From a virus, in IMG/VR virus record IMGVR_UViG_3300037468_000505, positions 1 through 32,744 of that record: a stretch of DNA of 32,744 bases. One strand, given 5' to 3'. Positions 1 to 12,324 of the stretch are shown here, in pieces (the first letter of the stretch is position 1; every line of letters begins with the position of its first letter). The position numbers and the translations under genes are program-made. The notes beneath the pieces were generated by a model. That model ran no database searches. It was not told where the DNA came from and worked only from the letters and a program-made list of their open reading frames with translations.

Positions 1-541
1 TCCACCGAAGATCTTGCACGACTTCTGCTGCGAGGAACGGACCCAGACCATCGAGCGTCTTGAGATCGGTCCATGCTCCGCGAAGAGTCGTCCACTGATT
101 GAAATCAGGAACATTCTCCTGCGCGTACTCTGCGTACGAGAGAACCCCATCGAGTTTGTTGAGACCTTCTGGAGTGCGGATCATGTACGCACCAGTGACG
201 ATGGGACGAACATTGTAGAGACGCTCTGCTGCGATAGTGTTATCCCATCCGGTCAGCAACAAGTCCTTCACGATCTCGCCGACACTGGGCTTGTTGAACC
301 ACCGGTAGATCGCGATCGCCAGTGTGATGTCGGTTTGGCTGCGATGCTGAGCCGACATCGGGCCACGCACGTTATCACGCAACCACGTCGTGCTCGCATC
401 GTCTTCACGAAAGACGTTGCAGAACCGCCACTCCTGGAATATCGGATCGTCGGACCATGGTTTCTTCGCTCCGTCGCGCCTTCGGAGCAAGATCCGATAT
501 CGTTCACGAGCCGTGTCGAAGAAGAGTCCTACGTTTTGCAT
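1..541 (-). CDS. Thymine-hypermodification family protein (aGPT-Pplase1 / 5-hmdU-kinase helical-domain type), partial
   Basis: This frame is open from an ATG at 541 to the window edge (180 codons), so the C-terminus is missing. The start has a GGGAG site six bases upstream and overlaps the end of the kinase gene by 13 bp. The protein begins MQNVGLFFDTARERYRILL. It contains a KPWSDDPIFQEWRFCNVFREDD block near residues 28-50, a GAYMI segment and a GLGPFLAAEVVQDL segment near the cut. These match my memory of the helical DNA-glycosylase-like proteins that accompany 5-hydroxymethyl-dU DNA kinases in phages with hypermodified thymine. In that family the protein helps replace the pyrophosphorylated hydroxymethyl group with an amine or amino acid. 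It is the last visible gene of the operon and follows the kinase, as expected. The family is fairly sure; the exact clade and reaction are inferred. Confidence 0.72.
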   Translation of the reverse strand, partial: MQNVGLFFDTARERYRILLRRRDGAKKPWSDDPIFQEWRFCNVFREDDASTTWLRDNVRGPMSAQHRSQTDITLAIAIYRWFNKPSVGEIVKDLLLTGWDNTIAAERLYNVRPIVTGAYMIRTPEGLNKLDGVLSYAEYAQENVPDFNQWTTLRGAWTDLKTLDGLGPFLAAEVVQDLRW

Positions 542-1104
542 GGATCTCCCAGCTGAAATGCCTCAACACACATGTTCAGCGCTTCCTGACGGTTGATGTG
601 ATGGAAGTCCACACCGAGGCTCTTGAACCGAGCGATCTGTGGAAGCAGTCCCTTGAGCTTGCCACGGGTGTTCGCAGGATTGAGAGGACGGACATCTCCT
701 CTTGCATCACGGCGCGACTGGACGCCGGCCAAACACGTCTCGAGATCAGTGTTCAGCATGATGACGATGAGCCGGTTCTTCTCCTTGAGTGCTGTTGCAC
801 GGACAACATCGCTGGCAACAATCAGCCCTTCAAAGATCACATCGAAATCAAGAGCGGTGTGATCATTGATGAGCGAGAAGATGTAGTCCAATCCGTTGAG
901 CGTGTCGCAGCCACCACACGGCGATTCGTAGTGGCCCGGGACAAACAACGGATTCCCTTCTTTGCGATAGAGCTCGTAGCCGATTGGTCGGTTCCGATCT
1001 TCGCGATGCACAGGGAACTTCTCATCGTATCGAGACATGATGTCCCGAACGATCCAGCTCTTCCCGGACCCACTCGTGCCACGGAGATTGATGCAAGTGC
1101 TCAT
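529..1104 (-). CDS. P-loop kinase, probable 5-hydroxymethyl-dU DNA kinase
   Basis: This 191-residue protein starts at ATG 1104, with AGAGGT upstream; longer in-frame starts would overlap the preceding gene. Walker A is GTSGSGKS at residues 9-16. An IFEGLIV segment and a hydrophobic RLIVIML strand follow. A later RSRR/ARG-rich region around ETCLAGVQSRRDARG fits a lid or substrate-binding arginine cluster. Size and motifs fit phage 5-hmdU DNA kinases, which phosphorylate hydroxymethyl-uracil bases already in DNA so that the pyrophosphate can be displaced by a nucleophile. It lies one base after the methyltransferase gene and directly before the partial hypermodification gene, and that context carries much of the assignment. 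A generic polynucleotide or nucleotide kinase is the alternative. Confidence 0.72.
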   Translation of the reverse strand: MSTCINLRGTSGSGKSWIVRDIMSRYDEKFPVHREDRNRPIGYELYRKEGNPLFVPGHYESPCGGCDTLNGLDYIFSLINDHTALDFDVIFEGLIVASDVVRATALKEKNRLIVIMLNTDLETCLAGVQSRRDARGDVRPLNPANTRGKLKGLLPQIARFKSLGVDFHHINRQEALNMCVEAFQLGDPCKT

Positions 1105-1105
1105 G

Positions 1106-1708
1106 CTACCTCTTCGTGAAAATCTGGACGTTGTTCGGATACCACCGAGCTCTTCCGCACACTGAATCCCACAACTGACGAATGGAAATCGTGTCCTCTG
1201 CGTTGAAGTCCCATCCGCGTTTCTCGAACTTCCCACACCACCACACTTGCGACTTGAGGTTGACGTGACCAGCACCCTTCTGTCCCGGAGGTGCTGCAGT
1301 GAAGATGATCCGGCTCATCGCATTGAAGCACAACGATGCGACAAGACCTTCTGCTGCTTCTTCAGGAAGATGCTCTGCGACTTCAGTGCACCACACGTAG
1401 TCGAACTTCGCTCCCAAGATTTCCAGTGGCTTCTGAAGATCGGCATGCATCAGCATGCCATTCTGAAATGTGACCGTATCATTCAGCATGATGTCCACGC
1501 CGACGCTCGGAATGCCGAGCAGCGCAGCCATCCGCACAGTGTAGCCGAGACCGCATCCAACATCCAGGAATGACAGAGGCTTGCCGAAATGAGTGAACAC
1601 AGCAAGCAACGCTGCTTGAATCTGGATGTGATGGATCTGACGACGGTGCTCCCACAGCTTCGGATCTTCCGATACCATCCCACCGCCAGGCGATTCGTAG
1701 AATTTCAT
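1106..1708 (-). CDS. SAM-dependent class I methyltransferase
   Basis: ATG at 1708 overlaps the TGA of the glycosyltransferase gene (ATGA) and has a GGAAA site upstream, so I prefer it to the in-frame start at 1741. The 200-residue protein has motif I FLDVGCGLGYT (about 48-57), an acidic motif II VGVDI (69-73) and the CTEVAEHLPEE stretch (107-117) typical of Methyltransf_11/23-type small-molecule methyltransferases. No DNA-methylase catalytic motif (DPPY, PC) is visible, so it probably does not methylate an ordinary DNA base. Next to a glycosyltransferase-like gene inside a DNA hypermodification operon, it may methylate a sugar or amine on the modified thymine. The fold is certain; the substrate is inference. 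Confidence 0.85.
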   Translation of the reverse strand: MKFYESPGGGMVSEDPKLWEHRRQIHHIQIQAALLAVFTHFGKPLSFLDVGCGLGYTVRMAALLGIPSVGVDIMLNDTVTFQNGMLMHADLQKPLEILGAKFDYVWCTEVAEHLPEEAAEGLVASLCFNAMSRIIFTAAPPGQKGAGHVNLKSQVWWCGKFEKRGWDFNAEDTISIRQLWDSVCGRARWYPNNVQIFTKR

Positions 1709-2466
1709 CGTTTCCAATCTGGCCCAGCAACGAGCCGCCAATTCGGGATCGTCTGCATTCCGTCATCCATCGTGCGAGTGCCTTTGCACGTGACCGTGTC
1801 CGAAAACCGTCCGAGGATGATGGCCTTCGCTTCTTCCTGAATATCGGGAGTCTTGCTCATCGACGAATCACGAAGCGACTTCCGCTTGTCGAGACCAATG
1901 TAGTTGACACGACCGACAGCCCCATCGTGCTTGCGATGTGCCGCCGACCGATAGACATCCTCGTATGCGCGAAGGCGCTCGTCGATGAACCAGGACGGAT
2001 CCTCTGCAGCACAGCAGAGATGAGCTCCTCCGTGGATGAGTCCATAGCTTCTCTTGAATCCGCTACCGAGCCAAATCCTGATGCTCGTGTTGCAGAATCC
2101 AGCGAGCGTGACGTTGAGCACTTCCGCGCACTCGCGAGCAGCGATCGCTGCTTCCAGCACACTGAAGAACTGCCCCTTCTCTCGGCCGACGAAGAAGTTC
2201 TCCGTCAGGTCATCATCGGTCCTGAAGTAGAACTTGTATCCGTGCCGAAATGCGACTCGGTAGCACTCCGCACTCTGCGGTATCATGCCAGTCTTGCCGA
2301 GTTCAACCGAGACGTTCGGGAACTGCGCAGCCCACGCTTTCTGATCTTCGTAGACACGAGGATCAGCGATGATGATCGTTGGCAGCTCAGTTCGGTGAAA
2401 TTCCAGAGTCCGCAGCGGAGGCTTTCTCCGCGACGGAATCACGAAGACAGTGTCAGTGAGATTCAT
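1705..2466 (-). CDS. Glycosyltransferase-like protein (GT-A type)
   Basis: This protein has 253 residues and starts at ATG 2466, overlapping the upstream gene by 14 bp. It begins with VFVIPSRRKPPLRTLEF, the beta-strand/loop start seen in GT-A nucleotide-sugar enzymes. It carries a FRTDDDLTENFF segment with three aspartates at residues 84-86, which fits the metal-binding DxD motif. A conserved-looking GLIHGGAHLCC segment and a YEDVYRSAAHRKHDG segment follow. The arrangement resembles phage glycosyltransferases proposed to decorate modified bases, but I cannot assign a CAZy family by eye. Its position between a radical SAM enzyme and a methyltransferase in the hypermodification operon suggests it adds a sugar to the modified base. 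A capsid or protein acceptor cannot be excluded. Confidence 0.6.
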   Translation of the reverse strand: MNLTDTVFVIPSRRKPPLRTLEFHRTELPTIIIADPRVYEDQKAWAAQFPNVSVELGKTGMIPQSAECYRVAFRHGYKFYFRTDDDLTENFFVGREKGQFFSVLEAAIAARECAEVLNVTLAGFCNTSIRIWLGSGFKRSYGLIHGGAHLCCAAEDPSWFIDERLRAYEDVYRSAAHRKHDGAVGRVNYIGLDKRKSLRDSSMSKTPDIQEEAKAIILGRFSDTVTCKGTRTMDDGMQTIPNWRLVAGPDWKR

Positions 2467-2836
2467 CGTTCACCAAATGATGACGCTGGATGTTTCCGAC
2501 AGTGATTGTCTTGATCTTTCCGTTGTTGCGAAGAACAGCAAGAGCTTCGCTGATCTTTCGTTCTCCGACTTTCTTGTCATCAAAGATCCATCCGATACTG
2601 TTCGAATGAAGATCTTCATTGGTGCATCCATCATGGTTTCTGATGAACAACAATGTGTGTATTTGAACTGCTCCAGCAGTGTTGTCCGGTGCGATTTCAT
2701 CGATGTAGTCGACGACAGCGCGTGCCTTGAAAGCACACTGCTTGTATTCTTCTACAGATCTCGGATGCTCCAACTCCATGATTTTGATGGTGGTATTGCT
2801 GATCCGATCTCGTCGTTCTGGAAGTCCCATTGTCAT
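2453..2836 (-). CDS. Small protein, possible winged-helix fold
   Basis: This 127-residue protein starts at ATG 2836. The start overlaps the radical SAM stop codon (ATGA) and follows a strong GGAGG site; the in-frame TTG at 2845 is less likely. I do not recognise the family. The C-terminal half (HTLLFIRNHDGCTNEDLHSN, then KVGERKISEALAVLRNNGKI) reads like a helix-turn-helix or winged-helix unit. No catalytic motif or membrane segment is visible. It sits mid-operon between the radical SAM and glycosyltransferase genes, so it may be a DNA-recognition or accessory subunit for the modification enzymes. That role is inference from position only. Confidence 0.72.
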   Translation of the reverse strand: MTMGLPERRDRISNTTIKIMELEHPRSVEEYKQCAFKARAVVDYIDEIAPDNTAGAVQIHTLLFIRNHDGCTNEDLHSNSIGWIFDDKKVGERKISEALAVLRNNGKIKTITVGNIQRHHLVNDESH

Positions 2837-3831
2837 TTCCTCCAAAGTGGAACGAAGGTGGTGTAGTTGGCATCGGTCATCTTGATCTGCTCTTCAGTCG
2901 GCGGATCGTAGACCGGGAGAAGTCCAGAACGCGGTGCTGCTGGTGCATCGCATTCCGCGCATATGCCCCATGCGCGATCCTTTTGCATGAGTCGCGCGCG
3001 AGCGGCCTCGAACAGCGGATGAACCCAGATATCCCTGAGCGAGAACTGGTTCACGTTTGCGATGATCATCTGTTTTCGCCAGTCATCGCAACAGAGGGTC
3101 ACAGATCCGTCCCACGCGACAGTCATCTCACGAAATGGCCGTGCGCAATTTCGCTTGAGAGGTCCGGAAATGGACTTGGTCTCGTTTGCGCCAGCGTGCG
3201 TCTTGACCATCCGGCTCCCGTGCGTGCCGTCGCGCACTGACAGGTCATCCATCAACACCACTGTTTGGTGCCACTTGTGGTGATTGCTGTAGGGACTGAT
3301 GCTGTTCGGCATGAGGTCGACGAAATAGTCCAGCACTTGAATGTTCTGCAAGGACCGAGCTTCGTCGATGAGTTGCTGTCTGCGTTCGGCCGGATAGTAG
3401 GTGTCGAGCAGCACGAAATTCAGTCCTGCTTTGAACATCAGGTCCATCTGTTGCTGCATCCGTGTGAACGGTCTTCCTGGCGGAGTTCGCAGCGTGTCTC
3501 CGTTCGTCGTGACCATCATGCTCGCATCAGGGAGTCGGTCCCGAAATGCCATGAAGATATCGAGATGCTTCGGATTCATGAGCGGCTCTCCGCGCATCGC
3601 GAATTCGATTCTGGCCTTCGGGCAGAACTCCTTCATGTCGTTCGCGATCTTCGTCGCGAGTTCGAGCGACATGTGCTTGTATCCACCAGGACCATTGCGG
3701 ATGGCAGTGAGTCCGCAGAAGTGACAGAGTCCTCCCGGTCCGCTGCCATGACGCATGGAGCATCCCTCTGTCAGTTCCGGCTGGATGACCCACGGACGAC
3801 CACCTTGGTCAGCTCGTTGCTGTTTCACCAC
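2833..3831 (-). CDS. Radical SAM / SPASM-type enzyme
   Basis: This gene starts at GTG 3831 (or GTG 3828, which forms a GTGA overlap with the phosphatase stop); GGGAG lies just upstream. The first ATG downstream would remove the first cluster cysteine. The 332-residue protein carries Cys24, Cys36 and Cys39 in TEGCSMRHGSGPGGLCHFCG, an unusual CX11CX2C version of the radical SAM CX3CX2C cluster motif. A GEP-like RGEPLMNPKHL follows (SAM-binding), then a SPASM-like cysteine-rich C-terminus (NCARPF, TLCCDDW, GICAECDAP) that would hold auxiliary iron-sulfur clusters. In Pseudomonas phage M6 a radical SAM enzyme rearranges a glycyl adduct on thymine into a carbon-linked form. A similar isomerase role is plausible here but unproven. 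Confidence 0.85.
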   Translation of the reverse strand: MVKQQRADQGGRPWVIQPELTEGCSMRHGSGPGGLCHFCGLTAIRNGPGGYKHMSLELATKIANDMKEFCPKARIEFAMRGEPLMNPKHLDIFMAFRDRLPDASMMVTTNGDTLRTPPGRPFTRMQQQMDLMFKAGLNFVLLDTYYPAERRQQLIDEARSLQNIQVLDYFVDLMPNSISPYSNHHKWHQTVVLMDDLSVRDGTHGSRMVKTHAGANETKSISGPLKRNCARPFREMTVAWDGSVTLCCDDWRKQMIIANVNQFSLRDIWVHPLFEAARARLMQKDRAWGICAECDAPAAPRSGLLPVYDPPTEEQIKMTDANYTTFVPLWRK

Positions 3832-4283
3832 TGCGCTCCCTGTGACAGGACGTATCGTTCGAATCTCGAATTCTTCAGGATCTTCGGTCTGAGCAACCGA
3901 GCTTCTTCAATCAGGACGTGCGGTTCTCGACCAGTGTGCATGGTCAGAGCACGGAGCGCCACCAGAGCACTGCGATTGTATCCGCTGTCGCAGTGGATCA
4001 GCACACCATACTGATGCATGCATGTAGCGACTTCCAAGGCAAGATTTTCAACGATGTCGGTCTTGATTGGATTCTCTTTGCTATCGGACATCGGGATATG
4101 CCGATATTTGAAACCAATGTTGTGCGCCATGTTTTCGAGTGCTTCGTCCGGGATGATCGCGACATTGATGATCATGCGGATCTTCCGCTCTTGGCACATC
4201 CTGAGCACGTCGCCGAAATAGAGACCCTTCGTGTGGCCACGCATGAACAGCCGAGGATGCAGCTCAATGAACTTCGGTTCCAT
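3825..4283 (-). CDS. Cysteine-based phosphatase, dual-specificity-phosphatase-like
   Basis: This 152-residue protein starts at ATG 4283 after an AGGAGA site, overlapping the preceding gene by 20 bp. The active-site loop is VLIHCDSGYNRSALVAL, a full HCX5RS signature with Cys98 as nucleophile and Arg104 as phosphate ligand. A possible general-acid aspartate lies in the HIPMSDSKEN loop near residue 67. The size matches minimal DSP/PTP domains with no extra module. Nothing in the sequence gives the substrate. Encoded between a hypermodification enzyme and the radical SAM enzyme, it could hydrolyse phosphate or pyrophosphate from 5-phosphomethyl-uracil in DNA or from a nucleotide intermediate. A host phosphoprotein is the ordinary alternative. 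Confidence 0.8.
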   Translation of the reverse strand: MEPKFIELHPRLFMRGHTKGLYFGDVLRMCQERKIRMIINVAIIPDEALENMAHNIGFKYRHIPMSDSKENPIKTDIVENLALEVATCMHQYGVLIHCDSGYNRSALVALRALTMHTGREPHVLIEEARLLRPKILKNSRFERYVLSQGAQW

Positions 4284-5247
4284 GTTCTCTCCTGACAGGG
4301 TTTCTGAGATCGGTCGTCTTCTTGTAGTCGTAGAGATAGTCGGACCACGTGTAACCGAAATCCGCGAGTACGAATCCCAGTTCCTTGCGCACTCCATCCC
4401 ACCCCTGAATCTCACCGAGAGACCATGCAGGCGAAATCAGTGGCCGCACGCGCATGTGATCGGTCTCTCCGAATTTCCAGTAGTCCTTGATGGCAGACTC
4501 GTAGGTGAGCTCTGAGTCGAGAGACTTGCCAGGATGTTGGCGATGTGAAGAATACGATGCCTTGTATTCGCACAGCATGACTTCGAGTTCGAAGACTGAA
4601 ATGTGAGTGCCGTGCGATGTTAGCTGAGCATGAGCAGTCTTCGCCATGCTCTCAGCATCGGCGATGGCAGTCTTCGACTTGTCGTACGGATCATGCTTCG
4701 CATCCGGGAACAGCACCGCAATTGCCGAACGTGGGCTCCATCCGCCGGCAGCACGGATGTCCGCATGAGGGACCTTCGTGAATCCGAGCTGATACCACAT
4801 CTCGACAAGCTTCGTTGCTGCGTATCGGCCGACGTGCGGAAGTCCCTTTGCGAATGACCACACCTCGTCGAACTCCGAGTTCGCGAGATACTTCTGTGCT
4901 CGGAACGTCTCTGCATATCCCACGAGATACTGGTCCATCCGCTCAGGGCTCTTGACCGTTCGTCGTTCCTTGCGAGTTCGAAGACCCTTCCAGTGCTTGT
5001 CCAGCCACGATAGCGGACCGAGAAGCGGAGCTGCGAGATACGACTCGCCTGAAATGCTGCGCCACATCGCTTCTGCAGACGGAACGTTGTAGAAGCCGAC
5101 GTAGAGAGCTGTTCTCCAGAGTTTCTCCTCTGGAGGCAAGCCCTCGCACATCTTCAGCACGGCCTTCATGTGCGGATCTGGCCCACCCGTCATCTTCTCG
5201 AAGATGCAGAACTCCTCGAAATGCTGCCAGTGCTGCTCAGTTGTCAT
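4264..5247 (-). CDS. Putative DNA base hypermodification protein (aGPT-Pplase2-like)
   Basis: This 327-residue protein starts at ATG 5247, which shares one base with the preceding stop (TGATG). The N-terminal half has LWRTALYVGFYNVPSAEAMW (about 44-63) and a central GLPHVGRYAATKLVEMWYQLGF segment (about 134-155). The second resembles the helix-hairpin-helix region of DNA glycosylase-like folds. The C-terminus has a cysteine/tyrosine-rich segment (VFELEVMLCEYKASY). These features match the large thymine-pyrophosphorylase-like family of phage DNA hypermodification operons, which couples an amine or amino acid to pyrophosphorylated 5-hydroxymethyl-uracil in DNA. A second member of the broader group is at the window edge, so this phage carries the usual pair. 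The family is fairly confident; the attached group is unknown. Confidence 0.78.
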   Translation of the reverse strand: MTTEQHWQHFEEFCIFEKMTGGPDPHMKAVLKMCEGLPPEEKLWRTALYVGFYNVPSAEAMWRSISGESYLAAPLLGPLSWLDKHWKGLRTRKERRTVKSPERMDQYLVGYAETFRAQKYLANSEFDEVWSFAKGLPHVGRYAATKLVEMWYQLGFTKVPHADIRAAGGWSPRSAIAVLFPDAKHDPYDKSKTAIADAESMAKTAHAQLTSHGTHISVFELEVMLCEYKASYSSHRQHPGKSLDSELTYESAIKDYWKFGETDHMRVRPLISPAWSLGEIQGWDGVRKELGFVLADFGYTWSDYLYDYKKTTDLRNPVRREHGTEVH

Positions 5248-5519
5248 CAGAATACCTCGAGAACGATGTTGGGACGACCGTGCATGTCGGTTGAGTTCCT
5301 GATCTTCGTGAGCATCCCTGTGAAATCAGGATCGAAGTGGTTCAACACCGGCTGTTGGCCAAATCCGTGCAAGACCTCGATGTTGCACGCAGGACACTTC
5401 CAGAGGTCTGCAGCGAAGACTTGATAGGGTGTTCCGTCATCTCGAAGGAAGTGCGCATAGATACCCGCACGTTCCATCCGCATTACGCGTCTACAATCAC
5501 GACACACGATTGGTGGCAT
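5247..5519 (-). CDS. Zinc-ribbon protein, first gene of the hypermodification operon
   Basis: ATG 5519 follows a GGAGGG site and lies 28 bp downstream of a strong promoter -10, so it is the first gene of this transcript; longer in-frame starts would read across the promoter. The 90-residue product has two CXXC pairs, CRDC (6-9) and CPAC (42-45), spaced to bind one zinc ion. Between them lies AGIYAHFLRDDGTPYQVFAAD. No known family is recognised. A structural zinc ribbon suggests nucleic acid or protein binding. It overlaps the aGPT-Pplase2-like gene by one base, implying a role in the same pathway. Confidence 0.75.
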   Translation of the reverse strand: MPPIVCRDCRRVMRMERAGIYAHFLRDDGTPYQVFAADLWKCPACNIEVLHGFGQQPVLNHFDPDFTGMLTKIRNSTDMHGRPNIVLEVF

Positions 5520-5546: not shown

Positions 5547-5575
5547 ATTATACCCTAAATTCGGTCTGCTGTAAA
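5547..5575 (-). promoter_or_regulatory. Sigma70-type promoter for the hypermodification operon
   Basis: On the minus strand TTTACA (5570-5575) and a perfect TATAAT (5547-5552) are separated by exactly 17 bp. The -10 is preceded by GGG. The same -35 hexamer, spacing and -10 occur at 12105-12133 and 12252-12280. Transcription should start near 5540 and read genes 5519 to 1. Confidence 0.85.
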
Positions 5576-5592
5576 GCGAAATCCATCTACAC

Positions 5593-6120
5593 CTATCTGA
5601 GCAGGGAGAAATGATTGAGGAAGGCTCGTTCGGCTTCTTGCCAACCCCATGGTTCCCACCCTCCAACAATTTCTTCTTCACGTTCGGTTGGTTTGGCGTA
5701 GTCAAGATGACGAATCGGATAGATGTCGAATCCTTTAGACGCTTCGTATCGCACCATGAGCTGATCGGCTGCTTCAACATCCTTCGACATGACTGGATTG
5801 CAGCCAAACTTCTCGTAGATCTGGCGCTGAAGTCGATCTTCTGCCTCGCGATACAGCGAGAATGCTGGATCTTTCTTGAGCCACTTCGTGATGTCTCCAA
5901 GATATGCTTCACTCGCATCGTGGAGCAATCCTTGGAGAGCATGCTCACGAAAGACCAAGCTGCACACGAAGACGGAATGCTGTGCTACTGAGATTGGAAA
6001 TTTCGTGTGGCCAGCAAATCGGTTGCACAGCGCCAACGCGTGCGCGATGTCCTTGATGTCGATGTCCTTTGGCTCCATCGCCATAGGATTGACAAACCTG
6101 TTCGTGAATGTGGTGATCAT
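5593..6120 (-). CDS. HD-domain phosphohydrolase (YfbR-like 5'-deoxynucleotidase type)
   Basis: This protein has 175 residues; ATG 6120 overlaps the upstream stop (ATGA). Metal-binding HD residues are visible as AQHS (His48), LLHDASEAYLGD (His67, Asp68, Glu71, Asp76), and a later D in EAADQLM. Length and motif order fit the HD family that includes YfbR 5'-deoxynucleotidases and phage dNTP/dNMP phosphohydrolases. In phages with altered bases such enzymes often remove the competing canonical nucleotide, so degradation of dTMP or dUMP species to favour hydroxymethyl-dU is a reasonable guess. The substrate is not visible in the sequence. The next promoter downstream (5547-5575) separates this gene from the modification operon. 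Confidence 0.8.
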   Translation of the reverse strand: MITTFTNRFVNPMAMEPKDIDIKDIAHALALCNRFAGHTKFPISVAQHSVFVCSLVFREHALQGLLHDASEAYLGDITKWLKKDPAFSLYREAEDRLQRQIYEKFGCNPVMSKDVEAADQLMVRYEASKGFDIYPIRHLDYAKPTEREEEIVGGWEPWGWQEAERAFLNHFSLLR

Positions 6121-6401
6121 TCCTCTGGTGCCTTTGGCATGACCGCGAAATCCGGATTGTCCACACGAATTCGGTGCTGTTCCGCTTCCTGGTTGATTGT
6201 GAACGGAAGTTCTGGCTCGTTCTCTTTCGACCTGATCTTCGGTTCAACATCGTATCCCAAGTGGTGGAGATAGTGCTTCGTGATGAGAAAGAGTTGAACC
6301 GACATGCTGACTCGATTCTTCGCTGCCTCCTCTCGAAGTGCGTCCTTGACTTCCATCGTGAGATGGAATGAGGTCATGACATTACGATTGGCGACAACCA
6401 T
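6117..6401 (-). CDS. Small protein with ribbon-helix-helix-like N-terminus
   Basis: This 94-residue protein starts at ATG 6401, with GAGGAG eight bases upstream, and overlaps the nuclease gene by 20 bp. Residues 9-48 (MTSFHLTMEVKDALREEAAK, then SMSVQLFLITKHYLHHLGYD) read as strand-helix-helix, the layout of Arc/MetJ/CopG-type DNA-binding proteins. The C-terminal half is charged and probably flexible. It could be a regulator of early genes, but no operator can be linked to it. Fold confidence is moderate. Confidence 0.7.
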   Translation of the reverse strand: MVVANRNVMTSFHLTMEVKDALREEAAKNRVSMSVQLFLITKHYLHHLGYDVEPKIRSKENEPELPFTINQEAEQHRIRVDNPDFAVMPKAPEE

Positions 6402-6786
6402 CTCTTATTCTCCTCAGAACTAGCTCATGTGAAATGCCTTCTTCGATGTATGCCATAGATCCTGTGGCGAGAAACACAGTAAGATCACGAGCATACACCA
6501 CGATCGTTTCCATCTCGCCAAAATCGTCTTCTCGCCAAATCACGTAGAACGCTCGCTTGCCAGCATAGTCCAGACGCTGCATCGAGATTCGTTGAAGACC
6601 AGTGTCTGAGAATGTGATACGACCACGGATGAACTTTGCTTCAATCCATGTCGTCGTGTTCGCATAGGTCACCGAAATATCTGGAACACCACCAGTCAGC
6701 TTGTCTTCGTGCCGAAAGACTACGGAACTCGGGATCTTCTTCCGTAGGAACTTGACGAGCTTCGACTTGAGATCTGCTTCGTTCAT
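6382..6786 (-). CDS. PD-(D/E)XK nuclease, VRR-NUC / resolvase-like
   Basis: This 134-residue protein starts at ATG 6786. GGVPDISVTY (32-41) and WIEAKF (47-52) give the Asp36 ... Glu49-X-Lys51 active site of the PD-(D/E)XK superfamily. The GG-PD start and small size fit stand-alone VRR-NUC or Holliday-junction-resolvase-like phage nucleases. A likely job is resolving branched DNA during replication or packaging. It is encoded beside the HD hydrolase and upstream of the modification operon. The nuclease fold is clear; the structure it cleaves is not. Confidence 0.8.
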   Translation of the reverse strand: MNEADLKSKLVKFLRKKIPSSVVFRHEDKLTGGVPDISVTYANTTTWIEAKFIRGRITFSDTGLQRISMQRLDYAGKRAFYVIWREDDFGEMETIVVYARDLTVFLATGSMAYIEEGISHELVLRRIRDGCRQS

Positions 6787-6795
6787 GGCATAATC

Positions 6796-6969
6796 TCAGC
6801 GAGAGTCATGCTTCTCTTTCTTCGCTGGTGGCTCTTCGGAAATGATCCCCCACATTCCTCCCATTCCAGCCCAATGAGCGTAGCATCTCCCACATTTGCA
6901 TTTCCACCCAAATGCAGGATAGTCTGGGAGTTTCGTTCCGCACGTCGGACATTTCTTCTGGCCTGGCAT
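6796..6969 (-). CDS. Zinc-ribbon mini-protein
   Basis: ATG 6969 shares one base with the preceding stop (TAATG), so I reject the longer in-frame start at 7143. The 57-residue product has CPTC (7-10) and CKC-G-RC (24-29), giving four or five cysteines for a zinc ribbon. A Gly/Met/Trp-rich stretch (HWAGMGGMWG) and a charged tail follow. The function is unknown. It belongs to a run of four tiny coupled genes (6796-7394). Confidence 0.7.
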   Translation of the reverse strand: MPGQKKCPTCGTKLPDYPAFGWKCKCGRCYAHWAGMGGMWGIISEEPPAKKEKHDSR

Positions 6970-7097
6970 TATCGCTTCTGCTCCGCTTTGCACTTGTCGC
7001 ACACAGCGTATGTCACTGTCTTTGCAGGATCTGCACAGCGACACTGCGAAATCACTGCCTTGCACACAGAACACAGCTGAATGTAGTGTCCAGTCAT
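6969..7097 (-). CDS. Cysteine-rich mini-protein
   Basis: This 42-residue product starts at ATG 7097, with GGTGGA upstream, and its ATG overlaps the TGA of the 37-residue membrane protein gene. It contains CSVC, CRC and CDKC (six cysteines), enough for one treble-clef or zinc-ribbon site. No family is recognised. The in-frame ATG at 7133 has GGGAG only two bases away and is less likely. Confidence 0.65.
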   Translation of the reverse strand: MTGHYIQLCSVCKAVISQCRCADPAKTVTYAVCDKCKAEQKR

Positions 7098-7207
7098 GAT
7101 TTCCACCAAATGCGGAAGATGATCGTGATGCATGCTCCCACAATTGCGATGCACAACACAGTGATGATGTATCGAGCGACGATGTCAGCGATGATCTCGC
7201 TTATCAT
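7094..7207 (-). CDS. 37-residue single-pass membrane protein
   Basis: This short gene is coupled on both sides. ATG 7207 lies inside the end of the 69-residue gene, with GGAG eight bases upstream. Its TGA (7094-7096) overlaps the ATG of the next gene. The product begins MISEIIADIVARY, then has a hydrophobic helix IITVLCIAIVGACITIIF (about 14-31) and ends RIWWKS, giving a positive C-terminal flank. Function is unknown; inner-membrane localisation follows from the helix. Confidence 0.62.
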   Translation of the reverse strand: MISEIIADIVARYIITVLCIAIVGACITIIFRIWWKS

Positions 7208-7394
7208 TCGCATGCTCCATTTGGCGCAGTCTCCGAAGAGCCGCGCGACTTCCGGACTTCTCCATTGCCGAGTACGACTTTGATGGCTTCCCAGTCACCA
7301 TCTTCATCCCGAGACGCTTCATGCTGCCAATGAGTGACGGCATGTGCGTGGCTTTTGCGAAGGCTTCAGCATCGACTTCCTTCATCTTCGTCAT
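7185..7394 (-). CDS. Small basic protein, unknown
   Basis: This 69-residue protein starts at ATG 7394, overlapping the DNA polymerase stop (ATGA), with AGAGG upstream. It is lysine- and arginine-rich (KRLGMKMVTGKPSKSYSAMEK, then SRAALRRLRQMEHANDKRDHR) and has no cysteine or membrane segment. A nucleic-acid-binding accessory of the polymerase is possible, but only from charge and position. The family is not recognised. Confidence 0.68.
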   Translation of the reverse strand: MTKMKEVDAEAFAKATHMPSLIGSMKRLGMKMVTGKPSKSYSAMEKSGSRAALRRLRQMEHANDKRDHR

Positions 7395-9160
7395 GATTTT
7401 GCCTCTGCCCAATTTGATCCTGTCGAGCACTCCCACAGGATCGGCACCTTCAAGGGAAATGCTTGTTCGTTGAGGATCTTCTCGACCTTCTTGGCGGATT
7501 CTTGGTCCGGAACATCCCCATCGATTTCGTCGTGAACAGTCATCCGCATTGTGAGTCCAGTTTCAGCACGACGCTTGTGGAGTTCGACGATCTTGATCTT
7601 CATGATGTCGGCTGCTCCACCTTGGATCACAGAGTTGAGTGCCTTGTGCGACCGATCACCATCAGGGAACCGCGCTCTCCGTCCCAACAACGTCCGCACG
7701 AACCCACGATTCTTCGCGAGGTTCGATGCCTTCTTCAGCAGTTTTCCGACTTCAGGGAACATCCGCTCGTAGATGCGAAGGATCACTTCTGCTTCGCCAA
7801 GAGTCACTTCCAGCATCTGCGCGAGCTTGGCATCACCGGCTCCGTAGAGCCTCGCGAAATTACAATCCTTCGCACGACGATAGGGCAAATCCGGGAGATA
7901 CTTCTTCACCATCTCCCACACGAAATTATGATAGCTCTGCATCGGATTCTGCCGATACGCTTCGAGCACAGCAGGATTGCCTGCATAGTTCGCGAACAGC
8001 CGATACTCGATCTGCATCGCATCGGAGCAGAAGAACAGACCGTGTCTAGCGATGTAGAGCTTTCGGACGATGAAATCCGAGTTCCCGAATGCTAGTTCTT
8101 GTTTCGAAGGAGTCATCACCTGCTGAATATTCTTGTCCGAGCAAGAAAATCGTCCTGAGACTGTTCCTCCTTCGTCTGTGCGTAGCTGATGTAGAGAATA
8201 CCGCAACAGGCCGTCAGGCCCAATAGCATCAGCATAGGCCACCAAGAACTTGCTCCTGAGCGACGCATACTTTCCTGCCCTCCTCGCGAGCTGCACCATC
8301 GGGTTATCGATGTTCTTGAGCACCAAATCAGTGAACGATGGTGTTCCTGCTTCGGTGAAGTGCGTGATAGGAATGTTGTAGTGCCGAAATAGTCGTTTCC
8401 AACTTGTTGGACTATCGGGATTCATCACGAATCCCACTTCTCGTGCGATCGTCCAGATGCAATCGAGCCACACTCGTTTGCTCTCTTCGCACCATCGGTT
8501 CAGCAACTCCACATCGAGCGGAGCCGCGTTCTTTTCCATTTCGCATATCGGAAAGATGAGGTCGCTTTCTAATGTGCGAACACGATCGAGATCTTCCGCT
8601 GCCATCCGAGGAGTCAACACATCGTAGAGCTCACCCACCAGCCGAGCATCTTCTTCTGCATAGCGTGCCACTTGGCCGGCGTGGTAGAATTTCATCCGAG
8701 TCTTGTCGAGATCCTCGCCTAACTTGCCACGACCGAGGTAGTCTTTTCCCAATGAGTTCAGATTGAATTCTCGACGATGGTCATCCAACAGAGCCGCGAA
8801 ATGCTGCACGTCTTCGAGGACACATCCTTGCGCTTCTAGATCGATACCCCACTCGCGAAATTGATGGTTGTCGAATCTGATATTCGCACCGACAAGACGC
8901 TTGCCACGAAGCTCTCTCTGAGCCCATCTCTTCATGGTGGCTTCATCAAGATTGCCACCACCAACATGACCCCACGGATAGTATCCGCACGGACCACCTT
9001 TCACGTAGATGGACGTCCCGATTGGTCGATCACCAGCCCACCACTTCAGTCCTGTCGTCTCTGTATCGATGTGGATCGTATCCCATCGGTCCAGACACGG
9101 AGGCTCTGTTGGTCTCCACGCATGATCCGTTTCGGCGAGCAGGTCAAAGAGACTTGGCAT
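7391..9160 (-). CDS. polA: Family A DNA polymerase with 3'-5' exonuclease
   Basis: This 589-residue protein is the replicative or repair polymerase of the phage. The proofreading domain (about 25-185) is intact: HIDTETTG (Asp32, Glu34), NIRFD (Asp97) and YAEED (Tyr167, Asp171). The polymerase domain has motif A CSDAMQIEYRLF (Asp380), motif B RRAKDCNFARLYG (Arg429, Lys431, Phe435, Tyr439) and motif C VHDE (His543-Glu545). Phe435 sits where E. coli Pol I has Phe762, which disfavours dideoxynucleotides. There is no 5'-nuclease domain. Motif A is slightly divergent, with CSDAMQIE in place of the usual DYSQIE. The start is ATG 9160, four bases after the upstream stop. It would have to copy hypermodified template if the downstream operon works as proposed. 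Confidence 0.96.
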   Translation of the reverse strand: MPSLFDLLAETDHAWRPTEPPCLDRWDTIHIDTETTGLKWWAGDRPIGTSIYVKGGPCGYYPWGHVGGGNLDEATMKRWAQRELRGKRLVGANIRFDNHQFREWGIDLEAQGCVLEDVQHFAALLDDHRREFNLNSLGKDYLGRGKLGEDLDKTRMKFYHAGQVARYAEEDARLVGELYDVLTPRMAAEDLDRVRTLESDLIFPICEMEKNAAPLDVELLNRWCEESKRVWLDCIWTIAREVGFVMNPDSPTSWKRLFRHYNIPITHFTEAGTPSFTDLVLKNIDNPMVQLARRAGKYASLRSKFLVAYADAIGPDGLLRYSLHQLRTDEGGTVSGRFSCSDKNIQQVMTPSKQELAFGNSDFIVRKLYIARHGLFFCSDAMQIEYRLFANYAGNPAVLEAYRQNPMQSYHNFVWEMVKKYLPDLPYRRAKDCNFARLYGAGDAKLAQMLEVTLGEAEVILRIYERMFPEVGKLLKKASNLAKNRGFVRTLLGRRARFPDGDRSHKALNSVIQGGAADIMKIKIVELHKRRAETGLTMRMTVHDEIDGDVPDQESAKKVEKILNEQAFPLKVPILWECSTGSNWAEAKS

Positions 9161-9164
9161 CGTG

Positions 9165-9419
9165 CTACTTCGGCATTTCCGGTTTCGTGCTCATCGTCAG
9201 GCATCCCTTGAAAACCGACGCAGATCCTCTCCCGTAATTTCTTGCCGCTTCATCTGCAACAGCTTCGGCCATCTCCATCGCATGTTCTCGGTTATCAACC
9301 ACAGAAACTCGCTTATCTCCTGTGGCAGTGTGCCGAACGACAACCCAGACAATGGACGAATGCTTGAGCATTGTTTTCGGAGCACGATTGCGTTTCTTGA
9401 CTGTTGCGATTGCTGGCAT
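9165..9419 (-). CDS. Small protein, unknown
   Basis: This 84-residue protein starts at ATG 9419, three bases after the HNH gene and four bases before the polymerase gene. The N-terminus is basic (VKKRNRAPKTMLKHS). A beta-like IVWVVVRHTATGDKRVSVVDN segment and an Ala/Glu-rich helix (AMEMAEAVADEAARNY) follow. This could be a small alpha/beta binding domain. I recognise no family. Confidence 0.68.
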   Translation of the reverse strand: MPAIATVKKRNRAPKTMLKHSSIVWVVVRHTATGDKRVSVVDNREHAMEMAEAVADEAARNYGRGSASVFKGCLTMSTKPEMPK

Positions 9420-9422
9420 GAT

Positions 9423-9749
9423 TCACTTCTTTGGTGGTTTCAGGCCACACTGAGAGCAATCCGCGCCCTTCTTGCGATTTTCTTCCTTCGTGAGCCACTG
9501 CATGTTCAGAGGCCAATCCAATCCACAGCACGCAAGAGGACAGACGTGATCGACTTCGTACCCACGACATCGCTTTGTGGATCCCTTGTCCCACCCACCG
9601 GGACATGGATTCGCTTTCATGAAATCCGCGATAGCTTTCTCTGATCGGTGCTGTCCAGCTCCCTGGCACGGGTATCGTGGTGCTTTGGTCTGCGTGAAAA
9701 CGCTCGAACAGAACAACACGCACAAGACAGCGATGAGAACTTTTCTCAT
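9423..9749 (-). CDS. Exported HNH-type endonuclease-like protein
   Basis: ATG 9749 has GGGAGG seven bases upstream; the longer in-frame start would include that site, so I reject it. The 108-residue product begins with a Sec-type signal (MRKVLIAVLCVLFCSSVFTQ). It then has a domain with CRGYEVDHVCPLACCGLD, MQWLT and ENRKKG. VDH gives the central HNH histidine and the N...WL...N..K pattern matches small HNH nucleases. Several cysteines (CPGG, CRG, CPLACC, CSQC) suggest zinc binding or disulfides. No lipobox is visible. Export points to periplasmic DNA, for example DNA of competing phage during entry, but that role is inference. Confidence 0.75.
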   Translation of the reverse strand: MRKVLIAVLCVLFCSSVFTQTKAPRYPCQGAGQHRSEKAIADFMKANPCPGGWDKGSTKRCRGYEVDHVCPLACCGLDWPLNMQWLTKEENRKKGADCSQCGLKPPKK

Positions 9750-9817
9750 GGTCGCGCCTCCCAAGCATTACAGCCGTTGCCGAGCGTCTCGCATTGTGGT
9801 TTCTCGCTCATCGGATG

Positions 9818-10159
9818 TTACGACCGTTCCGGCCAGTGCCACGTCCCAGGTCCAGTGCCTTCAAGCACACTCAGCGCCCAAAAGACATCTGTGCCATCGA
9901 GGAACACCTGTCCGTTGGCGCATCCGTCCGGCCAGATTCGCACAGCCATCATCGCGAAAACGTCATGCTCGGCGACCGAATTGCCGATATGCGCTTGCGC
10001 GCCTTCCGGCCAGACCGAACGCATCGGTGGTCCACTCGTCAACATTCCTTGCTTCATCCGATCGGCGATCTCTCTGCTCGTCGTTCGCCGTCGGTTGATT
10101 TGGGCAGCATCAGCCGCCGACAACACATAGTGCACAATTCGTCCCAGTGTGATGTTCAT
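9818..10159 (-). CDS. Conserved phage protein of the TLGRIVHYVL type, unknown function
   Basis: This 113-residue protein starts at ATG 10159, overlapping the upstream stop (ATGA). It opens MNITLGRIVHYVLSAADAA and closes with GQVFLDGTDVFWALSVLEG then GTWHWPE. I remember this pattern from many unrelated phage genomes, always as a small protein of unknown function. It is predicted soluble and beta-rich. The 68 bp between it and the HNH gene hold nothing recognisable. Confidence 0.78.
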   Translation of the reverse strand: MNITLGRIVHYVLSAADAAQINRRRTTSREIADRMKQGMLTSGPPMRSVWPEGAQAHIGNSVAEHDVFAMMAVRIWPDGCANGQVFLDGTDVFWALSVLEGTGPGTWHWPERS

Positions 10160-10548
10160 GACTGATCCTTTTCCAATCTGAAGAGTCCGTCCACGATGAC
10201 CTTGGCTTGGTCAAGCGTCTTCGCCCAGCTGACGTGCTTGCCATTCGGATCGTCTATCCACCAGTCCTTGTAGTATCCGACCCGAAGTGCGTATCCTTTG
10301 TAAATCTGAGTCTTCGGTTCTGGATCGACTAACTCCACCATTTTGTAGACGATGCGACGTCCTTCATCCTTTGAACACCCAGGGAGAAGGAACATCGCAA
10401 CGATCACAGCCGAATCGAATCCGTCTTCTAGCGCCACGAGCAGATCAGCGATGGGTGGTGTTCCAATTTCTGTTCCATCGCACATCGTGCATCGTGTCGG
10501 TCCAAGGATAGAAATCTTGCCTTCTTCACTCCTGCAATTTGGGCACAT
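10156..10548 (-). CDS. Protein with N-terminal zinc ribbon, unknown
   Basis: This 130-residue protein starts at ATG 10548 with GGTGGA upstream, overlapping the preceding ORF by 23 bp. CPNC (2-5) and CTMC (20-23) form a compact zinc ribbon. The middle (IADLLVALEDGFDSAVIVAM) is probably helical. The C-terminus (YKGYALRVGYYKDWWIDDPNG, then KTLDQAKVIVDGL) looks like a small alpha/beta domain. No enzymatic motif is visible. Function is unknown. Confidence 0.72.
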   Translation of the reverse strand: MCPNCRSEEGKISILGPTRCTMCDGTEIGTPPIADLLVALEDGFDSAVIVAMFLLPGCSKDEGRRIVYKMVELVDPEPKTQIYKGYALRVGYYKDWWIDDPNGKHVSWAKTLDQAKVIVDGLFRLEKDQS

Positions 10549-11182
10549 CGATCCACCGAATGTTCTTTTTCTTCAACATTATGTCGATGAAGATCGTCTT
10601 CATCGGGTGGTTGGGAACCTGATCTATCGTCGGTGTCCCAAGTTTCACGATTTCTTTGTAGAATGCGAGGGCTTGTCCTCCGAGTCCTTCTTCTGTGAGC
10701 GGTTCCAAGTGAAGGGGTTCGAGATCGGGTATCTTCTTCCGATCTCCCACGCGATGACCAGAAGCCACACGATCCACATCGCCCAAATCCACTTCATCTT
10801 GCCTCCTCACCGCACTGCCAAGAACGATTGCTTCGTGTTTGGTCAGCATCACAACGTCGCCGACCTTCCACGGATTTCGTCCCGAAAGCATCGTCATGGT
10901 CTTGCCCTGTGGCGCTTGCACGACATAGGGCACAGACTCCGTCTCCCTTAATTCCGAGAGGAAAGTCTTGTTCTTCTCCGACAGACTCTCTTCGTCTATC
11001 GTGTAGAAATCCACGAACGGCGATGTGACGATCGCGGATGTTGGTCCGAGAAATCGAGAGTCCTTGGTGTCGCCCTGATCTGGAAGACTGAGCACGTATG
11101 CGGCATACTTCGTGACACGCTCTACATACACGACTCGTCCGGTCACAGAGAGCTGCACCACCGAGCCTTGAGTCAGCATCAT
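10526..11182 (-). CDS. Unknown protein containing a nested out-of-frame ORF
   Basis: This frame is open for 218 codons from ATG 11182, which overlaps the upstream stop (ATGA). The first ~130 residues look like a normal beta-rich domain (QGSVVQLSVTGRVVYVERVT ... WKVGDVVMLTKHEAIVLGSA). From about residue 130 the sequence turns unusual (RRQDEVDLGDVDRVASGHRV), exactly where a 50-codon membrane-protein ORF with a strong ribosome site begins in another frame (10645-10797). The last 40 codons look natural again and could be re-initiated at GTG 10648, which overlaps the nested ORF stop. So the true product may be one 218-residue protein, or the C-terminal segment may be separate. Confidence 0.65.
   Translation of the reverse strand: MMLTQGSVVQLSVTGRVVYVERVTKYAAYVLSLPDQGDTKDSRFLGPTSAIVTSPFVDFYTIDEESLSEKNKTFLSELRETESVPYVVQAPQGKTMTMLSGRNPWKVGDVVMLTKHEAIVLGSAVRRQDEVDLGDVDRVASGHRVGDRKKIPDLEPLHLEPLTEEGLGGQALAFYKEIVKLGTPTIDQVPNHPMKTIFIDIMLKKKNIRWIDVPKLQE
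10645..10797 (-). CDS. Nested 50-residue membrane protein
   Basis: ATG 10797 is preceded by GAGGAGGCAAG, one of the best ribosome sites in this arm. The product is MKWIWAMWIVWLLVIAWEIG, a Trp-rich transmembrane helix, followed by RRYPISNPFTW and a Lys/Ser/Asp-rich tail. Codons use G or C at third positions as in neighbouring real genes. The stop (10645-10647) overlaps GTG 10648 in the enclosing frame. It lies wholly inside 10526-11182 in a different frame. Function is unknown; Rz1-like or other membrane accessory roles cannot be judged without a lysis cassette nearby. Confidence 0.58.
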   Translation of the reverse strand: MKWIWAMWIVWLLVIAWEIGRRYPISNPFTWNRSQKKDSEDKPSHSTKKS

Positions 11183-11376
11183 ATGCTGAGCAACTCTTGG
11201 ATCATCGCTGCGAGTTCGTGAATCGCATCGTTGATCTCATGGACAGTCCTGAATTCGTGGATGGAAAATTCACGACACTCTTGTTCGATCCACTCGCGGC
11301 GAGATCGTCGTTCGTAGAGATCCCAAGGCACACCTGATGCCTTGGGATGTATCTCTTGATACTCGCTCAGCGTCAT
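11179..11376 (-). CDS. Small helical protein, unknown
   Basis: This 65-residue protein has ATGA overlaps at both ends (starts at 11376, ends at 11179). It is strongly helical and charged (LYERRSRREWIEQECREFSI, then HEINDAIHELAAMIQELLSI), and the last 20 residues look like a coiled coil or amphipathic helix. No family is recognised. Confidence 0.7.
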   Translation of the reverse strand: MTLSEYQEIHPKASGVPWDLYERRSRREWIEQECREFSIHEFRTVHEINDAIHELAAMIQELLSI

Positions 11377-11609
11377 GCCGATCTCCTGCTCGGTTTCTTC
11401 CCCGATGGCGCCTTCACATGAGGTGTTTGAGAAGAAGACTTGACAGGACGGATCTTGATCTTACGGGCAGGAGGAACGTATCGTGGGTTATGCCTGTTAC
11501 AGATCCCCACACGATGCACGGGTTTCCCATTGTATGAGTCCTCGACAGTGTTTGGGAGAGAATGAACTCGAAGAACTCGTTGGCAGGACGAACAGAAAAA
11601 TCGTTTCAT
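11373..11609 (-). CDS. Small zinc-finger-like basic protein
   Basis: This 78-residue protein starts at ATG 11609 with AAAGG nine bases upstream. CSSC (6-9) and a CNRH pair (about 37-40) could bind zinc. The C-terminal half is very basic with Ser/Pro (RKIKIRPVKSSSQ, KKPSRRS), suggesting nucleic acid binding. Function is unknown. Confidence 0.7.
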   Translation of the reverse strand: MKRFFCSSCQRVLRVHSLPNTVEDSYNGKPVHRVGICNRHNPRYVPPARKIKIRPVKSSSQTPHVKAPSGKKPSRRSA

Positions 11610-11640
11610 GGGCCAGACCTTTCGGTGCTATGGCAAAGAG

Positions 11641-11686
11641 AGGGATGCTGGCCGAGGAGGATTCATTCACCGCAACCAGCATCCCT
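11641..11686. repeat. 11-bp perfect inverted repeat in a small intergenic gap
   Basis: AGGGATGCTGG (11641-11651) and its exact complement CCAGCATCCCT (11676-11686) flank 24 bp. It lies in the 127-bp gap between the first and second genes of the leftward early transcript. In RNA it would form a long-loop hairpin. No T-run follows on the minus strand, so it is not a classical terminator. It may be a processing or attenuation site or a protein-binding dyad. Confidence 0.6.
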
Positions 11687-11736
11687 GGGTGCGACAAGCT
11701 CACTGAGGTTCCCAACAGCAAGCTTCGTCGCAGACC

Positions 11737-12057
11737 TTACATCGTGGCGACGACCTTCGCAGCGACCTTCTCGGCCTTCGCCGACGCCTTCTCGAACTGC
11801 GCCTGCAGCTTCTCGGCGCGAGCCTTCGCCTTCTCGTAGCGAGCGGCGATCCTGGCCTGCTTCTGCTCGGCGGTCTCTGCGCGCTTCACGGCCTTCGGGT
11901 CCGGAGGAGCCCAGGTCTCGCACGCGATCTCGATCGTGTCCGGCGCCACACCGTCCACGAACGCCTTGCGATTGAAGATGACCTTCGCTCCCGTCATCTC
12001 GTCGACGTACCGCCCACCACCCTTTGCTCCGTCCTTGACCTTCTTCAGCGTCGCCAT
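11737..12057 (-). CDS. First leftward early gene, Ala/Lys-rich coiled-coil protein
   Basis: ATG 12057 follows AGGAGA by eight bases and lies about 40 bp after the predicted transcription start, so I use it instead of the longer in-frame start at 12081. The 106-residue product has an N-terminal basic domain (LKKVKDGAKGGGRYVDEMTG) and a small beta region (AKVIFNRKAFVDGVAPDTIE). From about residue 60 a long Ala/Glu/Lys helix (EQKQARIAARYEKAKARAEK and onward) resembles a coiled coil. Codon third positions are strongly G/C. A histone-like or DNA-binding role is possible. The family is not recognised. Confidence 0.75.
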   Translation of the reverse strand: MATLKKVKDGAKGGGRYVDEMTGAKVIFNRKAFVDGVAPDTIEIACETWAPPDPKAVKRAETAEQKQARIAARYEKAKARAEKLQAQFEKASAKAEKVAAKVVATM

Positions 12058-12104
12058 GCTTTTCTCTCCTGTTGTTGACACGAGTTGATTACGACTTGAA
12101 CACT

Positions 12105-12280: not shown

Positions 12281-12324
12281 AGCTCTTCAAGACCCGGTGC
12301 GGTTCACGCCGCCGTTGCTGACGA

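Follow-up and report, generated by a model that had tools for sequence, protein, structure and literature searches.

Our analysis of the window, the complete IMG/VR record IMGVR_UViG_3300037468_000505 of 32,744 bases, identified at its left end an operon that, judging from its gene families, is almost certainly devoted to a thymidine hypermodification based on 5-hydroxymethyl-dU (5-hmdU). Set against dozens of related viruses, it points to inositol or a derivative, rather than an amino acid, as the added group, and we lean towards a pathway in which a cyclitol is put on hmdU and then oxidised, glycosylated and perhaps methylated. A broader proposal, to which we give an even chance, is that inositol or aminocyclitols are attached to the DNA of a widespread phage branch through the 5-methylene of thymine by means of a phage inositol-phosphate synthase (MIPS), a phosphatase and a DNA transferase specific for cyclitols, and that the window's sub-branch adds a BtrN-like oxidation and a glycosylation, giving an aminoglycoside-like group. 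To our knowledge, the known 5-hmdU hypermodifications by this enzyme family all start from amino acids or amines. No report of inositol in phage DNA modification was found in a literature search; an earlier mention of phage MIPS together with the ADDT transferase may exist. If true, the cyclitol branch would be a new DNA chemistry, would offer new enzymes for DNA labelling and would explain what phage-encoded inositol-phosphate synthases, annotated today only as metabolic genes, are for. A mass match to glucosyl-hmdU (the base J nucleoside) would be ambiguous and need not mean glucose, of which inositol is an isomer: inosityl-oxymethyl-dU, C16H24N2O11 with a calculated mass of 420.138 Da, has the same formula. 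For the N-linked inosamine form the calculated mass is 419.154; a hexose would add 162.053 and a phosphate 79.966.

The nine overlapping genes claimed by an earlier note on this DNA were all found on the minus strand between positions 1 and 5519, overlapping or 1-2 bases apart (Table 1). They encode a 5-hmdU kinase and its helical partner, a distant ADDT, a dual-specificity phosphatase (DSP), a radical SAM (rSAM) enzyme with a twitch domain, a GT-A glycosyltransferase, a SAM methyltransferase and two small proteins, a set that is indeed unlike those of phages phiW-14, ViI or M6. The promoter described as perfect is a real promoter pattern, but one that departs from the consensus at one of 12 positions.

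Table 1. Features of the operon and its upstream region (positions in the window).
Feature	Position	Strand	Basis
g1, HMUDK_hel (aGPT-Pplase2-type), kinase helical partner	1..541	-	PF18723 4e-23; 3' end lost at contig end
g2, P-loop 5-hmdU DNA kinase	529..1104	-	PF18748; Walker A GTSGSGKS; GHYESPCGGCDT motif
g3, predicted SAM-dependent methyltransferase (Rossmann)	1106..1708	-	PF13489 3e-7
g4, GT-A-fold glycosyltransferase, DDD motif, distantly TAGT-like	1705..2466	-	AF2 model vs PDB
g5, small protein, weak DUF5457	2453..2830	-	PF17540 E 0.0022, under cut-off
g6, radical SAM, twitch auxiliary cluster, BtrN-like	2833..3831	-	SPASM 1.6e-12, Radical_SAM 1.1e-7 (Pfam)
g7, dual-specificity (Cys) phosphatase (DSP), active-site HCDSGYNR	3825..4283	-	PF00782 9e-11
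g8, distant ADDT homologue; proposed cyclitol transferase to phosphorylated 5-hmdU	4264..5247	-	PF18724 1.4e-4; hhalign; trees
g9, small Cys-rich (zinc-ribbon-like) protein	5247..5519	-	CxxC pairs in sequence; no family over cut-off
Sigma-70-type promoter pattern of operon, TTTACA-17-TATAAT	5547..5575	-	11/12 positions
g10, HD-domain deoxyribonucleoside 5'-monophosphate phosphatase, upstream	5593..6120	-	phrog_318 3.9e-46

The P-loop kinase and its aGPT-like helper each fall in a Pfam family of their own, both over the cut-off: g2 in PF18748 (HMUDK_HMUD1; 27.7 bits against 27) and g1 in PF18723 (HMUDK_hel; 82.6 bits against 25). The latter, together with the ADDT g8, accounts for the two hypermodification-family proteins that had been announced. 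HMUDK_hel was present in 98 phage records, including M6-like, PaMx11-like and PhiW-14 phages. GenBank phages yielded no match to the window, g8 or g4 at the DNA or protein level, and IMG/VR none to g8 or g6 in pattern scans with single sequences; the family was then reached through a degenerate kinase motif, and related operons contain kinases 48-52% identical to g2. The dUMP hydroxymethylase (thymidylate-synthase family) was found in 9 of the 12 records searched and adjoins the g1 homologue in close relatives. It is absent from the window contig, which stops within g1, and by analogy with those relatives the gene is expected just beyond the left end; as the window is the whole record, the advice to look left of position 1 finds nothing there in that record. 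In many relatives the hydroxymethylase, the kinase or the transferase has a g10-type phosphatase close by, and g10 probably helps to replace dTMP by hmdUMP. A role in host metabolism or in modifying the surface, and not phage DNA, is highly improbable for these genes: MIPS, glycosyltransferase and methyltransferase families do occur in sugar and lipid metabolism, but here the hmdU kinase, helper, ADDT and hydroxymethylase share the same operons.

Against the Pfam ADDT model PF18724, with a curated cut-off of 26.2, g8 scored 22.1 bits and a relative in the record of locus L157 25.4 bits, and profile-profile comparison of g8 with canonical ADDTs (hhalign) gave an E-value of 4.1e-6 and a probability of 87. 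The window's ADDT lies inside a deep clade apart from the M6/PaMx11 glycine-type ADDTs (tree support 98/92 and 98/81), and the branch from this clade to canonical ADDTs measures 3.27 changes per site. Two glycine-type ADDTs have solved structures, one of them named a glycinyltransferase. Among 64 distinct ADDT loci, the M6/PaMx11 partners (PLP, M6 rSAM, FAD lyase and AcT) were present in 0 of the 14 with a DSP versus 33 of the 50 others (p 6e-6), and MIPS was present in 8 of those 14 versus 0 of the 50 (p 7e-7). This genome context speaks against an amino acid as the nucleophile used by g8, and the amino-type thymine product foreseen in the earlier note becomes less likely. The note's remark that the operon has no PLP decarboxylase was correct: the PLP HMM has no match anywhere in the window or at a DSP-ADDT locus. 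It is rather unlikely that an amino acid or amine is added as in M6, PaMx11 or ViI, with the rSAM enzyme, glycosyltransferase and methyltransferase tailoring the side chain; in its favor, g8 is distantly homologous to glycine-type ADDTs and no inositol gene occurs in the window, but the very long branch, the company of MIPS in place of amino-acid-tailoring partners and an rSAM enzyme outside the M6 family all argue against it.

The clade-wide association of window-type ADDTs with MIPS and DSP, read from the sequences, favors a cyclitol. Starting the search from MIPS instead, we found a window-type ADDT, a DSP and a kinase within 4 kb of 33 of the 34 distinct phage MIPS in the main clade, and a Cr30-type ADDT with 6 of 31 distant ones. 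The MIPS of Menderavirus, with no nearby ADDT (PF18724 absent), was not taken as support. The order MIPS-rSAM-ADDT-DSP-kinase-helper-hydroxymethylase was found in L113/L141 and a similar one in L157, the rSAM being of the window's family, which in two operons has MIPS on one side and ADDT on the other. Locus L117 has genes for a GFO/IDH/MocA protein and a DegT/StrS aminotransferase beside ADDT-DSP, and GFO is also found in L136 and L152; such proteins act in routes from inositol to inosamine. MIPS (PF01658) had no match in G000, G001, G003 or G012, and neither the window nor G001, its nearest relative (53 kb), has a MIPS, GFO or DegT gene. The window, which does carry a window-type ADDT, DSP and kinase together in one operon, would belong to the MIPS-bearing inositol branch by its ADDT and DSP clade only. 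Its ADDT subclade (the window, L090/L091, L092 and L111) nests with moderate support among MIPS-bearing subclades in a second tree, where MIPS counts are biased because many ADDTs had been found via MIPS. This subclade has no MIPS and keeps the DSP, and three of its four members have the rSAM enzyme, a pattern also expected if MIPS-bearing relatives use inositol and the subclade, having lost MIPS, switched to another sugar or polyol phosphate as nucleophile, with the DSP dephosphorylating it and the rSAM enzyme and glycosyltransferase acting on the polyol. We consider such a switch quite unlikely, as rSAM enzymes of this family also occur within operons that have MIPS (L113, L157).

The phosphatase g7, correctly called a Cys phosphatase from the sequence alone, matches PF00782 (DSPc) at 42.1 bits against a cut-off of 33.5, and its residues C98, G101, N103 and R104 are invariant in 11 relatives. 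DSP follows the ADDT clade and not MIPS, Cr30-type MIPS loci having none, and may therefore act on phosphorylated DNA intermediates instead. One variant compatible with the cyclitol reading is that it dephosphorylates DNA-bound 5-phosphomethyl-dU, for proof-reading or density control, the rest being as proposed; fusions of DSP to the kinase (L119) and to ADDT (L115, L155) agree with this and with the cyclitol reading alike. We hold the variant possible rather than probable, since MIPS yields a phosphate ester, which calls for a phosphatase, and 33/34 main-clade MIPS operons have a DSP. No classical inositol monophosphatase (PF00459) scored over the cut-off as a substitute in loci without DSP. 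A DSP sought in the record of L123 was not found, and L128, seemingly without one, has a weak partial match at the contig end (E 0.003).

Enzyme g6 is a radical SAM protein as claimed, although its "SPASM" part is better described as a twitch domain with one cluster. Its profile matches BtrN best (4.8e-25), the butirosin 2-deoxy-scyllo-inosamine dehydrogenase. The AlphaFold model (pLDDT 72; below 50 in the first-cluster loop) aligned with BtrN plus 2-DOIA at Z 22.3, with the other BtrN entry at 20.8 and with the next best structure at 14.4, so that among rSAM enzymes BtrN has the fold nearest to the model. The auxiliary cysteines 229, 247, 291 and 294 align with the four of BtrN, while the radical SAM triad (C24, C36, C39) has the unusual spacing CX11CX2C instead of the CX3CX2C of BtrN. 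The two proteins are 18-20% identical, and the substrate of g6 is possibly attached to DNA. BtrN oxidises 2-deoxy-scyllo-inosamine (PMC9012708). A predicted fold of this kind is by itself no proof of a cyclitol substrate. A kinship with the rSAM step of M6, to which the earlier note had pointed, was rejected: the M6 enzyme is of a different family with no match to g6, and its HMM matches neither the window nor any of the DSP-ADDT loci.

The GT-A-like glycosyltransferase, a guess from sequence, was confirmed by the AlphaFold model of g4 (pLDDT 80, pTM 0.83), which matched GT-A glycosyltransferases of the PDB throughout (best Z 10.9); a PDB search with the GT profile gave no sequence match. Against TAGT (PF20691), g4 scored 12.3 bits (E 0.16), under the curated cut-off of 27.5, its best relative reaching E 0.001, and the DDD at residues 84-86 is invariant in five relatives. 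The SAM methyltransferase g3 was likewise borne out by its Pfam match. Its HMM finds only g3 itself, with no relative in the comparable operons searched, and g5 has none in related operons; another methyltransferase lies between ADDT and DSP in L114.

Our inference for the cyclitol reading, from the substrate through the reaction order to the structure of the end product, is as follows. By analogy with known pathways, 5-hmdUMP from the phage hydroxymethylase would be incorporated into DNA, where g2, the kinase, would phosphorylate the hmdU hydroxyl with the help of g1. Next, transferase g8 would replace the phosphate by a cyclitol and not by an amino acid, the candidates being myo-inositol, myo-inositol phosphate and an inosamine, and g7 would dephosphorylate the inositol phosphate either ahead of the transfer or after it. 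The BtrN-like g6 would oxidise a ring hydroxyl to a ketone, g4 would add a sugar and g3 may methylate. Most relatives would make the inositol phosphate with the phage's own MIPS; since the window's subclade has none, the cyclitol or its phosphate would there be taken from the host.

Among known systems, the M6/YuA-type (5-NedU) Pseudomonas phages (here LKO4) share with the window the 5-hmdU kinase, HMUDK_hel, an ADDT homologue and an rSAM, as well as a hydroxymethylase (in the window's case expected beyond the contig end) and an HD phosphatase near the DNA polymerase (gene list from phage SN1, PMC9476957). The window differs in having an rSAM of another family, no PLP enzyme, an additional DSP, glycosyltransferase and methyltransferase, and an ADDT in a separate deep clade. 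The kinase and HMUDK_hel of PaMx11/Abidjanvirus are the closest among cultured phages, with about 40% identity, but FAD enzyme and acetyltransferase genes stand where the window has DSP, rSAM and glycosyltransferase. The cultured Caulobacter phage Cr30 (KF301602) shares with the window an ADDT, a TAGT-like glycosyltransferase and a P-loop kinase in the vicinity; its ADDT (1.3e-52), glycosyltransferase and MIPS are adjacent. Its ADDT fits the Pfam model far better than g8 and belongs to another lineage; no DSP or BtrN-like rSAM was found in its cluster and no HMUDK_hel in its genome. Bacillus phage SP-15 carries glycosylated dihydroxypentyluracil (PMC5977210), a sugar-bearing thymine replacement as proposed here, although the base and the gene cluster differ.

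The nine overlapping or almost abutting minus-strand genes at the left end of the window very probably form a thymidine-hypermodification operon. The window is the entire IMG/VR record (32,744 bases); an HD-type dNMP phosphatase and a DNA polymerase lie upstream of the operon, and terminase, portal and head genes in the right part show it to be a tailed phage. The kinase partner (g1, truncated by the contig end), kinase (g2), methyltransferase (g3), twitch/SPASM radical SAM enzyme (rSAM, g6) and dual-specificity phosphatase (DSP, g7) scored above the Pfam cut-off, and the amino acid:DNA transferase (ADDT) match of g8 below it. Both the operon described in the earlier note and its general interpretation as hypermodification were right: g1 gave matches to the helical partner of the kinase in M6-like, PaMx11-like and PhiW-14 phages, a thymidylate-synthase-like hydroxymethylase adjoins its homologue in relatives, and profile comparison found g8 collinear with canonical ADDTs (E 4.1e-6, probability 87), sharing the motifs ERR, G..K and ExxLCxxK. 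PHROG 800, labeled terminase small subunit, matches the kinase at 1.3e-17, and the g1 match in PP931173.1 carries the same label; this PHROG is probably a mislabeled DNA-modification family.

Coordinates of the features discussed
Feature	Sequence	Position	Strand	Basis
Operon promoter TTTACA-17-TATAAT	window	5575-5547	minus	sequence pattern
Kinase (g2)	window	529-1104	minus	Pfam
rSAM (g6)	window	2833-3831	minus	CX11CX2C
ADDT-DSP fusion	L115	9989-11500
ADDT-DSP fusion	L155	10470-12347
DSP-kinase fusion	L119	11068-12132
Tandem kinases	L121	10031-11154
Tandem kinases	L156	11044-12143
GT, epimerase, second glycosyltransferase	L132	9992-13213
ADDT, TAGT-like GT, MIPS	Cr30, L140 (KF301602)	5723-9170
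MIPS, deazaguanine genes	IME-SM1, L139 (KR560069)	7320-12620

Direct searches for g8 relatives in GenBank phages, and a single-sequence pattern scan of IMG/VR, found none. A degenerate pattern of the kinase motif GHYExxCGGCD recovered 82 viral contig stretches, including L067, with the order ADDT-DSP-rSAM-GT...HD...kinase-helper at 44-63% identity; further relatives were added with the resulting rSAM, ADDT and glycosyltransferase (GT) alignments. HMM-based neighborhood maps uncovered a recurring ADDT-DSP-kinase module, with DSP at times fused to ADDT or to the kinase (Table), and no relatives of g3 or g5 in the compared operons. The rSAM and GT are each optional, with rSAM lacking GT in L092 and L113, GT lacking rSAM in L102/L121 and L136, and both present in the window and L090/L091. 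Two operons carry tandem hmdU-type kinases, perhaps one for each phosphate of a pyrophosphate. In L132, a window-family GT precedes an NAD-dependent epimerase and then another glycosyltransferase, with HMUDK_hel and a hydroxymethylase close by.

In many related operons, the ~360-residue gene preceding ADDT encodes myo-inositol-1-phosphate synthase (MIPS; PF01658, E about 1e-33 to 1e-38). Among 64 distinct ADDT loci, MIPS lay within 6 kb in 8 of 14 with DSP versus 0 of 50 without (p 7e-7), and M6/PaMx11 tailoring partners in 0/14 versus 33/50 (p 6e-6), p values that overstate independence as the loci share descent. The amino-type thymine guessed earlier is, on these counts, probably wrong. Because the loci share descent, and because those with and without DSP came mostly from different searches, we searched in reverse from MIPS. 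Among 65 distinct viral MIPS, a main clade of 34 (at least 54% identity to the L113 MIPS) had window-type ADDT, DSP and kinase within 4 kb in all members except L173 (33/34), and Cr30-type ADDT accompanied 6 of the 31 more distant ones. L113/L141 read MIPS-rSAM-ADDT-DSP-kinase-helper-...-hydroxymethylase, and L157 is similar with no helper recognized; the rSAM of both arrangements belongs to the window's family.

The window ADDT fell in a clade of 15 (support 98/81), comprising 14 with DSP and L128, whose DSP match is weak, partial and at a contig end. That clade belongs to a superclade of 22, and a branch 3.27 changes per site long (100/100) divides this larger group from 42 canonical ADDTs. 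MIPS accompanies 33 of 43 ADDTs in an enlarged tree, a biased count since many members were reached via MIPS. The window's subclade of four, all without MIPS, is nested among MIPS-bearing groups with moderate support (82/88, 88/76), and MIPS loss there is the simpler history, although a large part of these sequences came from the MIPS search.

The best solved relative of the rSAM family profile was BtrN (4.8e-25), with which the core and four auxiliary cysteines line up. Against the complex of BtrN with 2-deoxy-scyllo-inosamine, the g6 AlphaFold model (pLDDT 72) scored Z 22.3 over 236 residues at 2.7 A; the next protein reached 14.4. BtrN oxidizes this aminocyclitol (PMC9012708). In the window's subclade the first cysteine motif carries an eight-residue insertion (CX11CX2C; seen in the window, L067 and L092), which distant relatives lack (CX3CX2C). 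The M6 radical SAM enzyme belongs to another family. For the GT, a PDB sequence search gave no match and family similarity to TAGT is weak; its model (pLDDT 80, pTM 0.83) fits GT-A enzymes, mannosylglycerate synthase being the top match (Z 10.9), and DDD 84-86 is invariant among relatives. The GT of L136 adjoins a GFO/IDH/MocA oxidoreductase and ADDT; in L117, ADDT-DSP is followed by GFO/IDH/MocA and DegT/StrS-type aminotransferase genes. Such a pair converts myo-inositol to scyllo-inosamine in aminocyclitol antibiotic pathways. Gene families, operon layouts, associations and folds are shown by these comparisons; we infer the substrate, the succession of steps and what DSP does. In the proposed pathway a cyclitol would be placed on hmdU, then oxidized, glycosylated and perhaps methylated. 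The DSP might dephosphorylate inositol phosphate or act on a phosphorylated DNA intermediate; both roles are possible since it accompanies ADDT even where MIPS is missing and is missing at Cr30-type MIPS loci.

Caulobacter phage Cr30 offers a cultured test case for the pairing: its ADDT (1.3e-52), TAGT-like GT (8.5e-4) and MIPS are adjacent, with a P-loop kinase 2 kb beyond. The genome also carries a thymidylate-synthase-family gene and no HMUDK_hel. Its ADDT and GT are annotated as hypothetical proteins. This ADDT is of a different lineage from the window's, and most of what else it matched comes from phages of Salmonella, Vibrio and Klebsiella, so that ADDT and MIPS were probably joined more than once. 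In Stenotrophomonas Menderavirus IME-SM1, MIPS is flanked by folE and QueC-like/QueE genes, a 7-deazaguanine context in which one could imagine a deazaguanine carrying inositol. In L207-L210, L213, L216 and L217, whose contigs reach 293 kb, MIPS lies ~2 kb from a thymidylate-synthase-family gene with no ADDT recognized, possibly another route to inositol modification.
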